Shown piece by piece: positions 38,223 through 42,463 of a stretch of 42,463 nt of DNA (position 1 is its first letter; each line of letters starts with the position of its first letter). This DNA comes from an uncultured Bacteroidia bacterium (GTDB taxonomy: Bacteria > Bacteroidota > Bacteroidia > Bacteroidales > Prolixibacteraceae), in NCBI GenBank assembly GCA_903927965.1, contig CAIYPA010000183.1, forward strand, positions 1-42,463, given 5' to 3'. The notes below the pieces were generated by a model. The model was not told the DNA's origin. It did not search any database and worked only from the letters and a program-made list of their open reading frames with translations. A program made the position numbers and the translations under genes.

Positions 38223-40985
38223 CTAAAGCAGGTACCTGAACCCAATCTGATAATTCCGGCCATAATAATTTCGTTTTGACAGGGTTTCTGCATTGCCAGA
38301 AACCTCAAAGGGAACCGCATAGGTGTTGGAAACCGGTTTCTTTACGTAGAATTCATCAGGGGTATTGAGCAAATTTTGAACCTTGAGAAATAATCCAAAG
38401 TTCTTCTTGAATTTTTTCTCGGCCGAAAAATCAAACATATTCATGGCTTTCTGCCATTGGTCAAATCCATAGTAGGGGGAAACCAATGAGATCCGCTTGC
38501 CCGTGAACTGCCATGCCAGCTGCATATCAATCCCTTTCTTAATATTTTTGTACAATAGCGCGGCATTTGCGATGTGGGCCGATTGTCCTTGTAAGGGCCT
38601 TGTCTCTGAAGGGGCAGGTTCAATCATTAGGTTATTGAAGGTTTCAATTTTCGTGGTCGTGATGCTTGAATTGGTATAAGTATAGTTTAGTTTTAATCCA
38701 AATTGTTGTATATACTTTTCGTAAACAAATTCGAAACCATAATTTGTGGCATTGCCGAAATTGGATGGTTGGTACTGATCGGACTTGTCGCCAACAAAAC
38801 CAAATTCGATCGGATTCATTATGTTTTTATAAAATATACCGACAAGAATCTGTTCATTCGATTTTGGAAAATACTCATAACGAAAGTCGATGTTGTCAGC
38901 CTTTGCATGTTTCAACATTGGATTGCCCGTTTCGGTGTATTCGTCACCTTTTTTGTTGGTGGGAATAATCTCAAAATATCCCGGCCTGTTGATTGAATTA
39001 AAATAGGAGAGCCGAAGGTTTGTCTTGTTGTCGAGGTGGTATTTCAAATTAAAACTTGGCAACACATCGGTATAGGTAATCTGCCCCGATTTTCCCGCCA
39101 GAGTTTCGGGCAGGTCGGTGGTAAAACGCTGATCTGTATTTTCCATGCGAACGCCTGCCATGGTTTCAAGCTTTTTCCAGTTTATCTTCAGCATAGCATA
39201 TCCAGCCGAAATATTTTCATCGGCACGATAACTATTCGGATTTGCAGGAGACCCATTGGGATTGAAAACAGACCAGTTAAAATGATAAATATCTGTCCAA
39301 AGCTGAAAGTTGCCATCAGGATTTGGTATCGTTCTCAATTCGTAATCCTGGTATAAATTGTCGCGTTTCTTTGCCCTGTACATTCCACCAACAGATAAAG
39401 TATAAGGTATTGATTTAAAATTATCCGAATAGGCAAGGTTTGCATATCCTGCGATGTCCTTGTCGCTGGTTCTTTCCCAAATCCGGTGATAATCAACAAC
39501 TTTATTGGCATGTTGATATGGAACAGGGCTGGTTCCATCGGCAAAGTAACCATTGTCGTACTCATATTCGGCCATATCGGGAATGTTGTTCTTTGCTATG
39601 GAATAAGCTGTCGTCCAGTCGAATTTCAGCTTTGGGAAAAGCATATGGTTGCCTTGTAAAGTCGAATTGAAAATGGACTGATGCTGGTATTTTGAACGGC
39701 CAAAATTCCACACCTGACCTGTTCCGGGCCCTGTCCTCGGTGGGGGCTGCAATGTATCAGTGGTCATTCGGTTTTGTGCATCATTCAAAATGGCTTTAAA
39801 CACATAGAGGCTGATTTTATTTTTTTCATCAAAAGCATAGTCAAGCTTGGCATTAAGACCCATTCTTGTGAGTTGGTTCGAGTAGTCCCTGATATTTGAA
39901 TGTTTGATCCTTAAAGAGCCCTCTTTGTTCGTTTCGTCATAATACTCACTTGGATTGAAGATGCCACTATAGCTTCGGTAAGTATTCTGAAAGGAGCCAC
40001 CCAACATGATTCCCAATTTGTTATTGAAAAAACGGTTACCTATCGACAGGCTTGCGATCGCATTGGGTGTAAAGTTCTTGTTGGTATAGTTTAAATTGTC
40101 CCTTGTAAAATCGCCTGGTTTTGCCAGGTAGGAGGCTCCATTTGCCTCATAAGGTGACTTTAGGTTGATGCTTTTGACAGGAAAATAGTTATAACCCTTG
40201 TCGATCAGGTTCTGATTATACCCGGTCGAGAGACTGGCATTCACATACAAACCATTTGCGGCATTTTTCATGATCATGTTGACGGCTCCTCCAATGGCAT
40301 CACCCTCCATATCAGGCGTCAGGGCTTTGCTTACCTCAACGCGTTCAACTAAATCTGATGGGAATATATCCAAAGGAACATACCTGTTTTTATTGTCGGG
40401 ACTGGGGATTTTGATCCCGTTGATCAGCGTGTAATTGTACCTCTGATCCATTCCCCTGATAATGGCATATCTTCCTTCCCCACTGGAGCTTCTTTCGAGC
40501 GAGACACCGGAAACCCGCTGCAATACATTGGCAATGATGATATCAGGCGATAATTGAATGGATTTCGCCGAAACAATATTTGATACGATCAGCGAATTCT
40601 GCTCCACTCTTTTGGCAATTATCTCGCTCTCCGCATTCTTTTTACCCGATACAGTCACCAATGAAAGCTCTGAATAGGCATTTTTCAAATGGAAGTTCAG
40701 GACCATATTCTTTTTAATCGAAACTAATGTGTCTTTTTTTTGATAACCAATAAAACTACAGACTATTTTATGTTTGCCTTCCGACACATTCTGCAAGGTG
40801 TAGGTTCCATCCAACCCGGCTACAGTATTTAGCTTTAGATTTGATATTGAAATAGTTGCGCCAATCAAAAGCTCTTTTGAATCTTCATCAGTGATTGTCC
40901 CCTGTATTTTGAAATTGGCAGTTTGACCCGAAATATTGAATTGTAAAATGATTAAACAAGATAAAAGCAATGACAATCTTCTCAT
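38223..40985 (-). CDS. TonB-dependent outer membrane receptor
   Basis: The 920-residue receptor starts at 40985 (MRRLSLLLSCLIILQF signal peptide); the longer frame to 41036 is upstream of the promoter-like box at 41012-41019. A carboxypeptidase-D-regulatory-like domain (IQGTITDEDSKELLIGATI), a TonB plug (IIANVLQRVSGVSLER, IRGMDQRYNYTLINGIKIP) and a large beta-barrel follow, ending in the aromatic GRNYQIGFRYLL typical of outer membrane proteins. It takes up a bulky ligand powered by TonB. The barrel features place it with the FecA/CirA-like transporters, not with SusC. The partner gene downstream is a beta-helix lipoprotein, which suggests an oligosaccharide or metal-complex ligand, not identifiable here. 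Confidence 0.9.
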   Translation of the reverse strand: MRRLSLLLSCLIILQFNISGQTANFKIQGTITDEDSKELLIGATISISNLKLNTVAGLDGTYTLQNVSEGKHKIVCSFIGYQKKDTLVSIKKNMVLNFHLKNAYSELSLVTVSGKKNAESEIIAKRVEQNSLIVSNIVSAKSIQLSPDIIIANVLQRVSGVSLERSSSGEGRYAIIRGMDQRYNYTLINGIKIPSPDNKNRYVPLDIFPSDLVERVEVSKALTPDMEGDAIGGAVNMIMKNAANGLYVNASLSTGYNQNLIDKGYNYFPVKSINLKSPYEANGASYLAKPGDFTRDNLNYTNKNFTPNAIASLSIGNRFFNNKLGIMLGGSFQNTYRSYSGIFNPSEYYDETNKEGSLRIKHSNIRDYSNQLTRMGLNAKLDYAFDEKNKISLYVFKAILNDAQNRMTTDTLQPPPRTGPGTGQVWNFGRSKYQHQSIFNSTLQGNHMLFPKLKFDWTTAYSIAKNNIPDMAEYEYDNGYFADGTSPVPYQHANKVVDYHRIWERTSDKDIAGYANLAYSDNFKSIPYTLSVGGMYRAKKRDNLYQDYELRTIPNPDGNFQLWTDIYHFNWSVFNPNGSPANPNSYRADENISAGYAMLKINWKKLETMAGVRMENTDQRFTTDLPETLAGKSGQITYTDVLPSFNLKYHLDNKTNLRLSYFNSINRPGYFEIIPTNKKGDEYTETGNPMLKHAKADNIDFRYEYFPKSNEQILVGIFYKNIMNPIEFGFVGDKSDQYQPSNFGNATNYGFEFVYEKYIQQFGLKLNYTYTNSSITTTKIETFNNLMIEPAPSETRPLQGQSAHIANAALLYKNIKKGIDMQLAWQFTGKRISLVSPYYGFDQWQKAMNMFDFSAEKKFKKNFGLFLKVQNLLNTPDEFYVKKPVSNTYAVPFEVSGNAETLSKRNYYGRNYQIGFRYLL

Positions 40986-41011
40986 GAATACACAATTTTT
41001 AAATCTTTGTG

Positions 41012-41019
41012 CAAAAGTA
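41012..41019 (-). promoter_or_regulatory. Possible -7 element of the TonB receptor operon
   Basis: TACTTTTG (complement of 41012-41019) matches TAnnTTTG exactly, 27 bases before the start at 40985. No good -33 box is found 18-20 bases upstream, so it may need an activator or an ECF-type sigma factor. Confidence 0.35.
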
Positions 41020-41036
41020 GGTTCCCGATATTTCAT

Positions 41037-41330
41037 ATGGGTTACAGACTAAATACAATTCAATGATAATAATGTTACAAAACATTGCCATAGTGATCAG
41101 CAATACCTGATATATGCCTGATTGAATTTAACTTATGGAAGCGAAAAGGCCTACTGAACGGTTTTAGGGTAGGCAGTATTGGTTACATAACAAGGTTAAA
41201 CGAGCTTTGATTTCGTTCAGATCAGGGGAATTCGGATATCAAAAAAATATAGATGCAGCAATAGCCTGGAGCAATACAGGTTGGAATACAGTATAAAAGG
41301 TAAAAACAGATTTGTTATTTCGTCTCCAGC
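41037..41330. other. Intergenic region, no gene seen
   Basis: A stretch of 294 bases between the TonB receptor and the repeat array. The only structure noted is a weak hairpin with arms GCCTAC (41149-41154) and GTAGGC (41169-41174). No open frame looks coding. Confidence 0.4.
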
Positions 41331-41736
41331 CACTTAATTCGTCATTTCGACTCAAGTTCGGCTCCATCCTCTTAATTCGTCATTTCGACTCCGCTCAATG
41401 ACCGATCGTGCTCCCTTTCTCGATATTGACTGTACTATTATTCTGCACTTTCAAAGTTGGTCTTGCACAACCAGAGGTCCCTGAGCGTGGTCATCGAGCT
41501 GGTCATTGAGCGAAGCCGAAATGGAGTCGAGATTAGTCGAAGGTGGCCGGCTTTCGGATTTGTCATTTCGGCTACGCTCTTTCTAATTCGTCATTTCGAC
41601 TCCGCTCAATGACCGATCGTGCTCCCCTTTTCGATATTGACCATACTATTAATCAGCACTTTCAAAGTTGATCTTGCACAATCAAAGGTCCCTGAGCGGA
41701 GTCGAAGTCCCGGCTTATAGAGATCCCTGAGTATCT
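41331..41736. repeat. Repeat array, left part: two ~210-bp units plus a stub
   Basis: Unit 1 starts near 41371 and unit 2 near 41583, a period of about 212; a stub lies at 41331-41370. Each unit begins TTCGTCATTTCGACTCCGCT and continues with CAATGACCGATCGTGCTCC and an AATCAGCACTTTCAAAGTTG-like middle. It then has the inverted arm TGAGCGGAGTCGAA (altered in unit 1) and CCCGGCTTTCGG. The arms can pair across about 100 bases into a long hairpin. Unit 1 carries an extra segment (about 41472-41525) missing from unit 2. Unit 2 runs into the 3' end of the nuclease gene. Confidence 0.85.
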
Positions 41737-42071
41737 TCATCCAGATTGTCATCCAGAGAAGTTGAGATGGGCTTATTCTTAAAGTGTGTAATATTCTTAC
41801 ACTCAGCCAATTCATGCAATTTGTTTTTGTCACTTTTAATCAACGCATCCTTTTTTGCCTGGCTCCATCCCTGTACTTGCTTCTCCCTGTGAAATGCTTC
41901 ATCAATCCTGTCAAATTCTTCACAATAAACCAATTCAACCGGAGGATTTTTCTTTGTAAAGTTTGCACCTTCACCATTCAGGTGCTGCTGCATTCTTCTT
42001 GCCAGTTCATTTGTACTGCCTGTGTAGTATTGACCATTGGAACACAATAAGATGTACATCCAGCCTTTCAT
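41715..42071 (-). CDS. GIY-YIG nuclease family protein with repeat-derived tail
   Basis: The 118-residue protein has the small stand-alone GIY-YIG fold: GWMYILLCSNGQYYTGSTN at 3-21 (the MYI and YTG pair), ELARRMQQHLNGEGANFTKK with the catalytic-type Arg, then LVYCEEF and HREKQVQGWSQAKKDALI with the conserved Glu. UPF0213/YhbQ-like proteins of this type are predicted or weak DNA nucleases. The catalytic fold is complete by residue 85. The last 18 residues, PISTSLDDNLDEDTQGSL, correspond to the translation of the repeat segment 41472-41522 (PISASLNDQLDDHAQGPL), and the stop codon lies in repeat sequence. The gene is flanked on both sides by the repeats and has no other gene partners here. Confidence 0.88.
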   Translation of the reverse strand: MKGWMYILLCSNGQYYTGSTNELARRMQQHLNGEGANFTKKNPPVELVYCEEFDRIDEAFHREKQVQGWSQAKKDALIKSDKNKLHELAECKNITHFKNKPISTSLDDNLDEDTQGSL

Positions 42072-42159
42072 GATATTTTGTTTTATTAAGTAGTTGACTG
42101 ATTTACTTCAACTAAGGTTTTGATTCCATTTAGGTTTAACTCTTTTTAATTTGACCTTT

Positions 42160-42463
42160 CAATTCGTCATTTCGACTCCGCTCAATGACCGATCGTTCTC
42201 CCCTCCTCCATTTTGACCAAACTATTAATCAGCACTTTCAAAATAGTAGTTGTACAATCAAAGGTGACTGAGCGGAATCGAAGTCCCGGCTTTCGGATCA
42301 ATGACCGATCGTGCTAATCTCCTCGAATTTGACCATACTATTATTCAGCACGTTCAAACTCGCTCTTGCATAATCTAAGGTCCCTGAGCGGAGTCGAAGG
42401 GCCGACTTTCGGATTTGTAATTTCGGATATGCTCTTCTTAATTCGTCATTTCGACTCCGCTCA
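42160..42463. repeat. Repeat array, right part
   Basis: One unit covers 42160-42300, a second lacking the first arm begins at 42299 (AATGACCGATCGTGCTAATC) and runs to about 42435. The first arm of another unit (TTCGTCATTTCGACTCCGCT) starts at 42442 and leaves the window. Inverted arms TGAGCGGAATCGAA and TGAGCGGAGTCGAA are present. All units share orientation with those left of the nuclease gene. Confidence 0.85.

Follow-up and report, generated by a model that had tools for sequence, protein, structure and literature searches.

Small GIY-YIG nuclease genes set among class-matched, dispersed hairpins: candidate loop-specific nucleases of single-stranded DNA in Bacteroidota

The window considered here, the 42,463 nucleotides of contig CAIYPA010000183.1 (C183) from an uncultured Bacteroidia bacterium of the Prolixibacteraceae, ends in a repeat array that encloses a small GIY-YIG nuclease gene. 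Genes of this family are closely associated with short hairpins whose stems stay paired while their letters vary. The loop of the hairpin matches a segment near the C-terminus of the nuclease, genomes that carry the nuclease hold more copies of the matching hairpin, and some of these hairpins sit within the loops of others. On balance, these observations are probably best read as those of a loop-specific, single-strand GIY-YIG nuclease, akin to the Ssn nucleases, accompanied by mobile 23/24-nt hairpins of its own.

The source genome is a 7.57-Mb draft in 584 contigs, and because the window, a whole contig, ends within the array, the right side of the array is incomplete. As the first-pass annotation had proposed, repeat units with inverted arms flank the gene on both sides (Table 1). 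A repeat search of the window returned four copies of a 132-nt unit at 41374, 41585, 42161 and 42277, with start-to-start distances of 211, 576 and 116. The 14-nt arm TTCGACTCCGCTCA has eight matches in the window at no more than two mismatches, six of them exact and all within 41384-42463, against an expectation of 0.13, and this number was reached by none of 100 shuffles. The hairpin core TTCGRCTNCGCTCA occurs eight times around the nuclease gene, seven times exactly. The array unit at 41585-41716 has two arms of its own that are able to pair together (folding z -4.50).

Table 1. Positions of the nuclease gene, hairpin units and longer repeat units in the window
Feature	Coordinates	Strand	Basis or remark
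Two longer (132-nt) array units, downstream of gene	41374..41716	+	Repeat search
Hairpin unit (CAT-core-ATG-ACC)	41381..41403	+	Core 41384-41397; unit footprint
Hairpin unit, loop variant GCTTCG	41501..41523	-	Core 41507-41520; TTCGACTCCGCTCA probe with 2 mismatches, TTCGRCTNCGCTCA exact
Hairpin unit	41592..41614	+	Core 41595-41608
Hairpin unit directly past stop codon, stem poorly paired (1 bp)	41687..41709	-	Core 41693-41706
GIY-YIG nuclease gene (P0001), class A, 118 aa	41715..42071	-	ORF and Pfam PF01541
Gene 3' end made of decayed hairpin resembling the one in repeat unit 1	41719..41770	-	52-nt ungapped match
Codons of residues 86-100, hairpin-class-linked segment (C91, N93)	41772..41816	-	Column association
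Two longer array units, upstream of gene	42161..42408	+	Repeat search
Hairpin unit, closest one upstream of start codon	42168..42190	+	Core 42171-42184
Hairpin unit, 1 mismatch in core	42263..42285	-	Core 42269-42282
Hairpin unit	42379..42401	-	Core 42385-42398
Hairpin unit truncated by contig end	42447..42463	+	Core 42450-42463

The 118-residue window protein matches the Pfam profile PF01541 with 64 bits, and residues Y6, Y16, G18, R26, H30 and E63, which we take to be the catalytic residues of the GIY-YIG superfamily, are unchanged across 45 aligned nuclease sequences. An AlphaFold2 model of the protein averages a pLDDT of 90-98 in ten-residue blocks up to residue 90 and 51-57 thereafter, and a fold search with the nuclease returned 1zg2 and 1ywl at E values below 0.001. 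Judged by the profile match, the invariant residues and these fold matches, the protein is a member of the GIY-YIG superfamily, and its nearest solved relatives in both sequence and fold are UPF0213/YhbQ-like GIY-YIG proteins (PDB 1zg2, 1ywl). No split host gene is seen to the left of the nuclease gene, which sits in the repeat array, and the contig end truncates the right side. A second copy of the start of the gene, identical over 111 of 111 nt, lies at the end of contig C206 (L020, 3580-4148), where the upstream array has diverged from that of C183 and the left neighbour is a different one. The assembly being a draft, this could be a second gene copy or a strain variant.

Hairpins of this kind fall into three loop classes, RCTNCG (A), AGWRC and its variants (B1), and RCARG (B2). 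When the source genome was searched with the core TTCGRCTNCGCTCA, 84 copies were found against none for a reversed-core control, mostly on contigs other than that of the nuclease gene, in keeping with the dispersal that had been suspected. The 132-nt unit has 11 matches in the same genome, 8 of which lie at C183 and C206, with weaker or short ones at C270 and C12; the widely dispersed entity is the short hairpin rather than the long unit. Among 198 A cores from 50 loci, chosen without regard to pairing, stem positions 1-3 pair in 96, 92 and 92% of cases against 54, 34 and 40% expected, and the 5-nt flanks of these cores comprise 78 different ones. The three stem pairs are mostly followed by an ACC foot, whose letters are present in 83, 91 and 91% of 48 source-genome windows, in 95, 95 and 100% of 24 in genome G074, and beside nucleases in 70/60/80% (class A), 79/69/96% (B1) and 84/57/88% (B2). 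Three pairs, the loop core and ACC thus make a class A unit of 23 nt. On contig C304, five cores follow one another head-to-tail at a spacing of exactly 23 bp, an array period equal to the size of the hairpin unit, and other short arrays have spacings of 21, 24 or 25. A second dispersed family of palindromic repeats, with arms GCGGCGCAAT...ATTGCGCCGCC, adjoins A hairpins at L254 646-776 and 955-1062 (contig C222) and occurs also in G085.

The association extends well beyond the window. It was assessed at 87 loci, 30 from family genomes (the source genome included) and 57 named, and a hairpin was counted where the core TTCG-N3..8-CTCA was accompanied by at least three paired stem bases. Within 500 bp of the gene, 276 hairpins occur in 114,096 bp, as against 15 in 220,444 bp at a distance of at least 1 kb, which is a 36-fold higher density near the nuclease genes; the loci include near-copy rows (L057 and L100; L095 and L096; L069 to L071). 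At least one hairpin lies within 500 bp at 52 of the 57 named loci, the misses being L094, L117, L120, L139 and L142 (cut short). As a paralogue control, 37 GIY-YIG loci (L002-L008, L143-L172) were taken, of which L007, L150 and L151 belong to the close family, leaving 34. At these 34 other GIY-YIG loci of family genomes, no class loop lies closer than 500 bp to the GIY-YIG match, and L003 and L159 have one each at about 1.4 and 0.6 kb. The UPF0213/YhbQ-like proteins are relatives by sequence and fold; the other GIY-YIG genes of the family genomes, which may include UPF0213 proper, are without the hairpins. The nearest hairpin is oriented away from the gene at 32 of the 47 loci having one within 400 bp upstream (binomial p 0.019) and at 43 of 62 downstream (binomial p 0.003), with the kinship of rows uncorrected in both; outward orientation on both sides is as inverted ends would show.

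Records with these repeats come from many Bacteroidota, from Aggregatibacter and from a Sphingomonas plasmid, as well as from MAG records labelled Treponema, Chloroflexi and Melainabacteria, the labels being taken as given. In Aggregatibacter kilianii (L121, 2935-3339) the nuclease gene and the two 50-nt inverted arms around it make up a compact element some 405 bp long, and the arms are 84% complementary with a B2 loop in each. The plasmid of Sphingomonas parapaucimobilis (L290, 1366-1812) carries a GIY-YIG gene (44% identical) between class A hairpins, the last of which lies within the coding end of the gene, and its tail is without CxN. In Methylobacterium bullatum (L289, 1464-1935) a GIY-YIG relative (43%) is flanked by CCTCAGGATGAGG palindromes, possibly a further loop class. 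Carriage of close relatives by phages or plasmids was considered and set aside, there being no record of at least 60% identity among the 35 plasmid and 20 phage records matched.

The class of the loop follows the C-terminal part of the nuclease. For 76 of the 87 rows (at least 85 aa and at least 75 bits), each labelled by its commonest nearby loop class, tails with CxN are class A in all 42 labelled rows, with 4 further rows unlabelled, and those with AYRD (or AYKD) are B1 in 12 of 12. The remaining tails comprise 9 B2, 3 A, 2 B1 and 4 unlabelled rows, so that the exceptions are three A-labelled rows without CxN, two of them truncated, and two B1 rows without AYRD. Column by column, association with loop class reaches z 23.5 at C91 and z 20.7 at N93 across 62 rows (of the 76, 8 without a label, 2 that are truncated and 4 that are identical or near-identical were dropped), as judged by shuffles that ignore relatedness. 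The strongest class-linked columns all fall within residues 82-101, and the highest among residues 1-80 is residue 67 at z 4.6. At a single genomic site, Chryseobacterium taeanense (A, L108) and C. cheonjiense (B1, L115) differ in both tails and hairpins, although the flanks are homologous and a stretch of 77% identity over 315 columns ends near codon 80. This pair suggests, from comparison of the two sequences, that tail and hairpins were swapped as a set. On a tree of the first 84 residues the loop class changes 15 times among 76 of the 87 loci, where the minimum is 2 and shuffling gives a mean of 21.2. A single origin was not rejected for any class (A p 0.118, B1 0.161, B2 0.054), and repeated class swapping is thus suggested rather than proven.

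The first-pass annotation had placed its emphasis on a C-terminus made of the repeat itself. The 3' end of the gene is indeed of this origin, since it agrees with repeat unit 1 at 38 of 52 nt with a score of 48, where the top of 2000 shuffles is 32 and 100-nt pieces from elsewhere in the gene reach 14-32. The reported match of the tail to the repeat translation over 10 of 17 residues (ISTSLDDNLDEDTQGSL versus ISASLNDQLDDHAQGPL) is right by eye, and the stop codon, at 41715-41717, is at the edge of repeat unit 2, in which it was said to lie. At the 68 labelled loci, a first downstream hairpin occurs within 400 bp in 62 and in none of the other 6. The stop codon comes before it at 40 of these 62 loci, inside it at 2 and beyond it at 20, the window's own decayed hairpin being left out of the count. 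At loci with the stop ahead of the hairpin, the hairpin starts at a median of nt 335 counted from the start codon, and at nt 305 where it is read through, and the core holds no stop codon in its three forward frames. Because the hairpin starts at a similar place either way and the core is stop-free, incidental read-through suffices for a repeat-made tail. The tail accordingly looks like incidental read-through into the nearest hairpin, and a functional role for it was rejected. The repeat-made end is real and recurs (22 of 62 loci), but the part of the C-terminus tied to loop class in the alignment is residues 86-100, ahead of the repeat-made tail.

Copy numbers across 140 family genomes, partly drafts that may miss genes, give a further link. 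The 15 genomes with an A nuclease hold a median of 18 A copies (7 to 97), against a median of 1 in the 125 without (p 2.5e-9; genus-stratified, 1 in 20,001). The probability is about 2.5e-8 when copies at the nuclease locus are subtracted, and likewise at about 2.5e-8 when two nuclease genes with an inner stop (G042, G093) are scored as absent. For B2, 7 genomes with the nuclease have a median of 25 copies, against 1 in the 133 without (p 9e-6, stratified 3e-4). Three of the seven (G006, G008, G022) show no labelled hairpin at their own B2 gene, and the remaining 4 genomes give p 4e-4. In cross tests over the 140 genomes, no B2 excess was found in A-only genomes and no A excess in B2-only genomes. 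Cores of class B1 are rare, all 7 lying at the nuclease locus in G112 and G114 and none in G137. The expectation that nuclease-bearing genomes would be richer in repeats is thus borne out for the matching class, also within genera; together with the enrichment at the loci and the match of loop class to tail, it upholds the view that nuclease and repeats belong together. Repeats as abundant in genomes lacking the gene, which had been named as evidence to the contrary, were found in part: at least 10 copies without the matching nuclease occur in 15 of 125 genomes for A and in 16 of 133 for B2. Among these is G074, a single contig of 4.5 Mb with 83 B2 cores, many of them arrayed. Its one GIY-YIG match lies in a 608-aa frame taken as UvrC, alongside one weak Y1_Tnp match, and a tblastn search of 30 of its 83 repeat places with nine proteins returned nothing below E 0.098.

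The proposal of a mobile family gains new traces, namely hairpins inside the loops of other hairpins. For 541 distinct cores the unit window was excised, and the joined flanks were checked for a core and for a paired stem across the join. Ten units lie inside another loop at no more than one outer-core mismatch, four without a mismatch and six relying on one. Among the same 541 units the reversed-core control gave 0 and the opposite orientation 1, the latter being L387 (G074:C1:1462390-1462690). The nested inserts measure 21-24 nt and sit around loop nt 6-9. The inner stem is clearly distinct from the outer one in six independent cases (C12, C537, L060, L092, L106, L330), with a B2 unit in an A loop at L106 and L330, and at L367 the inner and outer loops differ. 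Stems are alike inside and out at L110 and L126, where tandem duplication could explain the arrangement, and two L060 cases within the ten are one duplicated stretch; about six clear independent nestings thus remain. An earlier run over 344 paired-stem units gave 3 cases, and excision at random places gave 5 of 1720. In a larger random run a core was formed at 8 of 20,000 places, all of them joins of adjacent hairpins in an array, whose halves do not enclose a complete unit as those of the nested cases do. In the source genome 2 mid-loop cases were observed (C12 with one mismatch), against 0.003 expected by uniform chance or 0.02 if the insert-accepting fraction is assumed to be only 12%. At C222, two conserved genes stand about 480-600 bp further apart than in all 8 relatives that aligned at both flanks (of 10 fetched), and the space between them holds three A hairpins and another repeat family; by this alignment it is a lineage-specific gain and not one clean insertion. 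An exact empty site of the nuclease gene was not found; in G143 a second copy of the neighbour gene is without nuclease and hairpins, and its match stops before the site.

From these patterns we infer binding, cutting, a single-stranded substrate and insertion by the nuclease. The one-domain GIY-YIG protein would recognise a short hairpin on single-stranded DNA, a 23/24-nt unit in which three freely varying pairs close a class-specific loop and ACC mostly follows on the 3' side. The loop would be read by a segment of 10-15 residues after the last helix, CxN answering to RCTNCG and AYRD to AGWRC, and would be cut around its middle. Copies of the unit may enter such loops and other sites, whereby the family would spread and arrays would grow, and the gene itself would travel between its own targets. 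A loop-reading nuclease acting on folded single strands would explain the kept pairing with free stem letters, the match of loop to segment and the mid-loop inserts. Against this reading weigh the repeats in genomes without the matching nuclease, the nested cases that rely on an outer-core mismatch or may be duplications, the B2 units in A loops, the tails that depart from the code (the Sphingomonas relative among them), the weak folding of single hairpins and the single-origin tests. A narrower version is put forward more tentatively: the hairpin would be a transposable unit of 23/24 nt with an ACC foot, inserting into loops by means of the one-domain nuclease, and the swappable tail of 10-15 residues would form a specificity cassette with the adjacent hairpin. 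If so, the catalytic domain could be re-addressed to a new loop by joint exchange of tail and hairpin.

The Ssn family appears to be the closest known system. These site-specific single-stranded nucleases of the GIY-YIG superfamily are reportedly found in Neisseria and others, where a small nuclease is said to accompany a matching short repeat in many copies of the same genome and to cut only single-stranded DNA at its cognate sequence. A multi-copy cognate repeat that tracks the nuclease class is found here too (84 copies against 0 for the control). The Ssn work may describe some of these features too, but the present system would differ in its 23/24-nt hairpin with a free stem and a class-specific loop that follows a short C-terminal segment, in the bracketing of the gene by its targets, and in the nesting of units in loops.

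A possible but somewhat doubtful alternative takes this likeness further and dispenses with mobility. By cutting single strands at the dispersed hairpins, whether during DNA entry or replication, an Ssn-like nuclease would tune DNA uptake or recombination, and the hairpins would have spread otherwise. It fits all the association data and has a published precedent in the Ssn of Neisseria. It also suits the A-type loci L069-L071 and L073-L078, nine in all from a single genus, which have both flanks in common and hence mark a conserved chromosomal place; RNA genes, including rRNA, were rejected as the reason for common flanks after an Rfam search of 6 loci gave 0 matches. The mid-loop nested units and the 23-nt head-to-tail array nevertheless point to insertion at the loop. 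Hairpins moreover bracket the gene, and the B1 cores of G112 and G114 are all at the locus as if they had arrived together with it, although this pattern is absent from the third B1 genome, G137.

The loop-reading nuclease with mobile hairpins also accounts for more than a gene that merely rides on recombining repeats without acting on them. Such a passenger would suit the genomes that keep repeats without the gene, but it is improbable, as it leaves unexplained both the match of loop class to residues 86-100 and the hairpin-free surroundings of the other GIY-YIG genes. Slightly less credible still is that a RAYT (Y1 transposase) moves these repeats as REP elements, with the GIY-YIG gene as a passenger. 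REP/RAYT systems, including REPINs, consist of dispersed short hairpins with a constant foot by the stem and a linked gene bracketed by the same hairpins. The present repeats resemble them in being dispersed hairpins tied to one bracketed gene, with a constant ACC foot beside the stem, and differ in that the bracketed gene is a GIY-YIG and not a Y1 (HUH) transposase gene. The likeness to REP/REPIN elements drawn by the first-pass annotation holds for the dispersed short hairpin but less so for the doublet form, since an inverted partner at 12 nt is found in a minority of source-genome windows (4 of 49). Units of that genome are mostly single or head-to-tail, and the nested units, like those in the 23-bp tandem, consist of one hairpin each, unlike REPINs. 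Y1_Tnp matches do occur in 128 of the 140 family genomes, with 11 in the source genome. No hairpin, however, was found in 95,013 bp at 30 Y1_Tnp loci, a biased part taken from among the best-scoring Y1_Tnp matches in general, one per genome. Two of the 11 source-genome matches lie on C198 and C51, contigs without an A core, and the loop class tracks the GIY-YIG tail. It is very improbable that the hairpins serve the nuclease gene as regulatory RNA structures or terminators, for although the nearest upstream hairpin lies 14-108 nt ahead of the start codon in 40 of the 47 loci having one within 400 bp, source-genome copies are mostly on contigs without the gene, the short stems with long loops fold weakly (best -2.7 kcal/mol with DNA parameters, shuffles being equally good), and in 40900-42463 Rfam gave no family at threshold and one sub-threshold microRNA match only.

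GIY-YIG homing endonucleases are selfish nuclease genes of the same superfamily and cut only sites free of the element (PMC1564403). They differ from the present case, in which the nuclease gene occupies an intergenic repeat array and has on its flanks the repeated hairpin that is its putative target. The available passages of that superfamily survey (PMC1564403) make no mention of such repeats, and among the titles and abstract openings listed no literature on repeats of this kind paired with a GIY-YIG gene was found.

If the loop-reading nuclease is the right interpretation, these repeats have a unit of defined extent and an enzyme to go with it, along with a specificity code that can be read. 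That code, of CxN, AYRD and other tails against the three loop classes, would be open to tests with oligonucleotides, and the nested copies indicate where the cut should fall. The family would then represent sequence-specific single-strand nucleases with exchangeable targets, as well as a very small form of mobile DNA.
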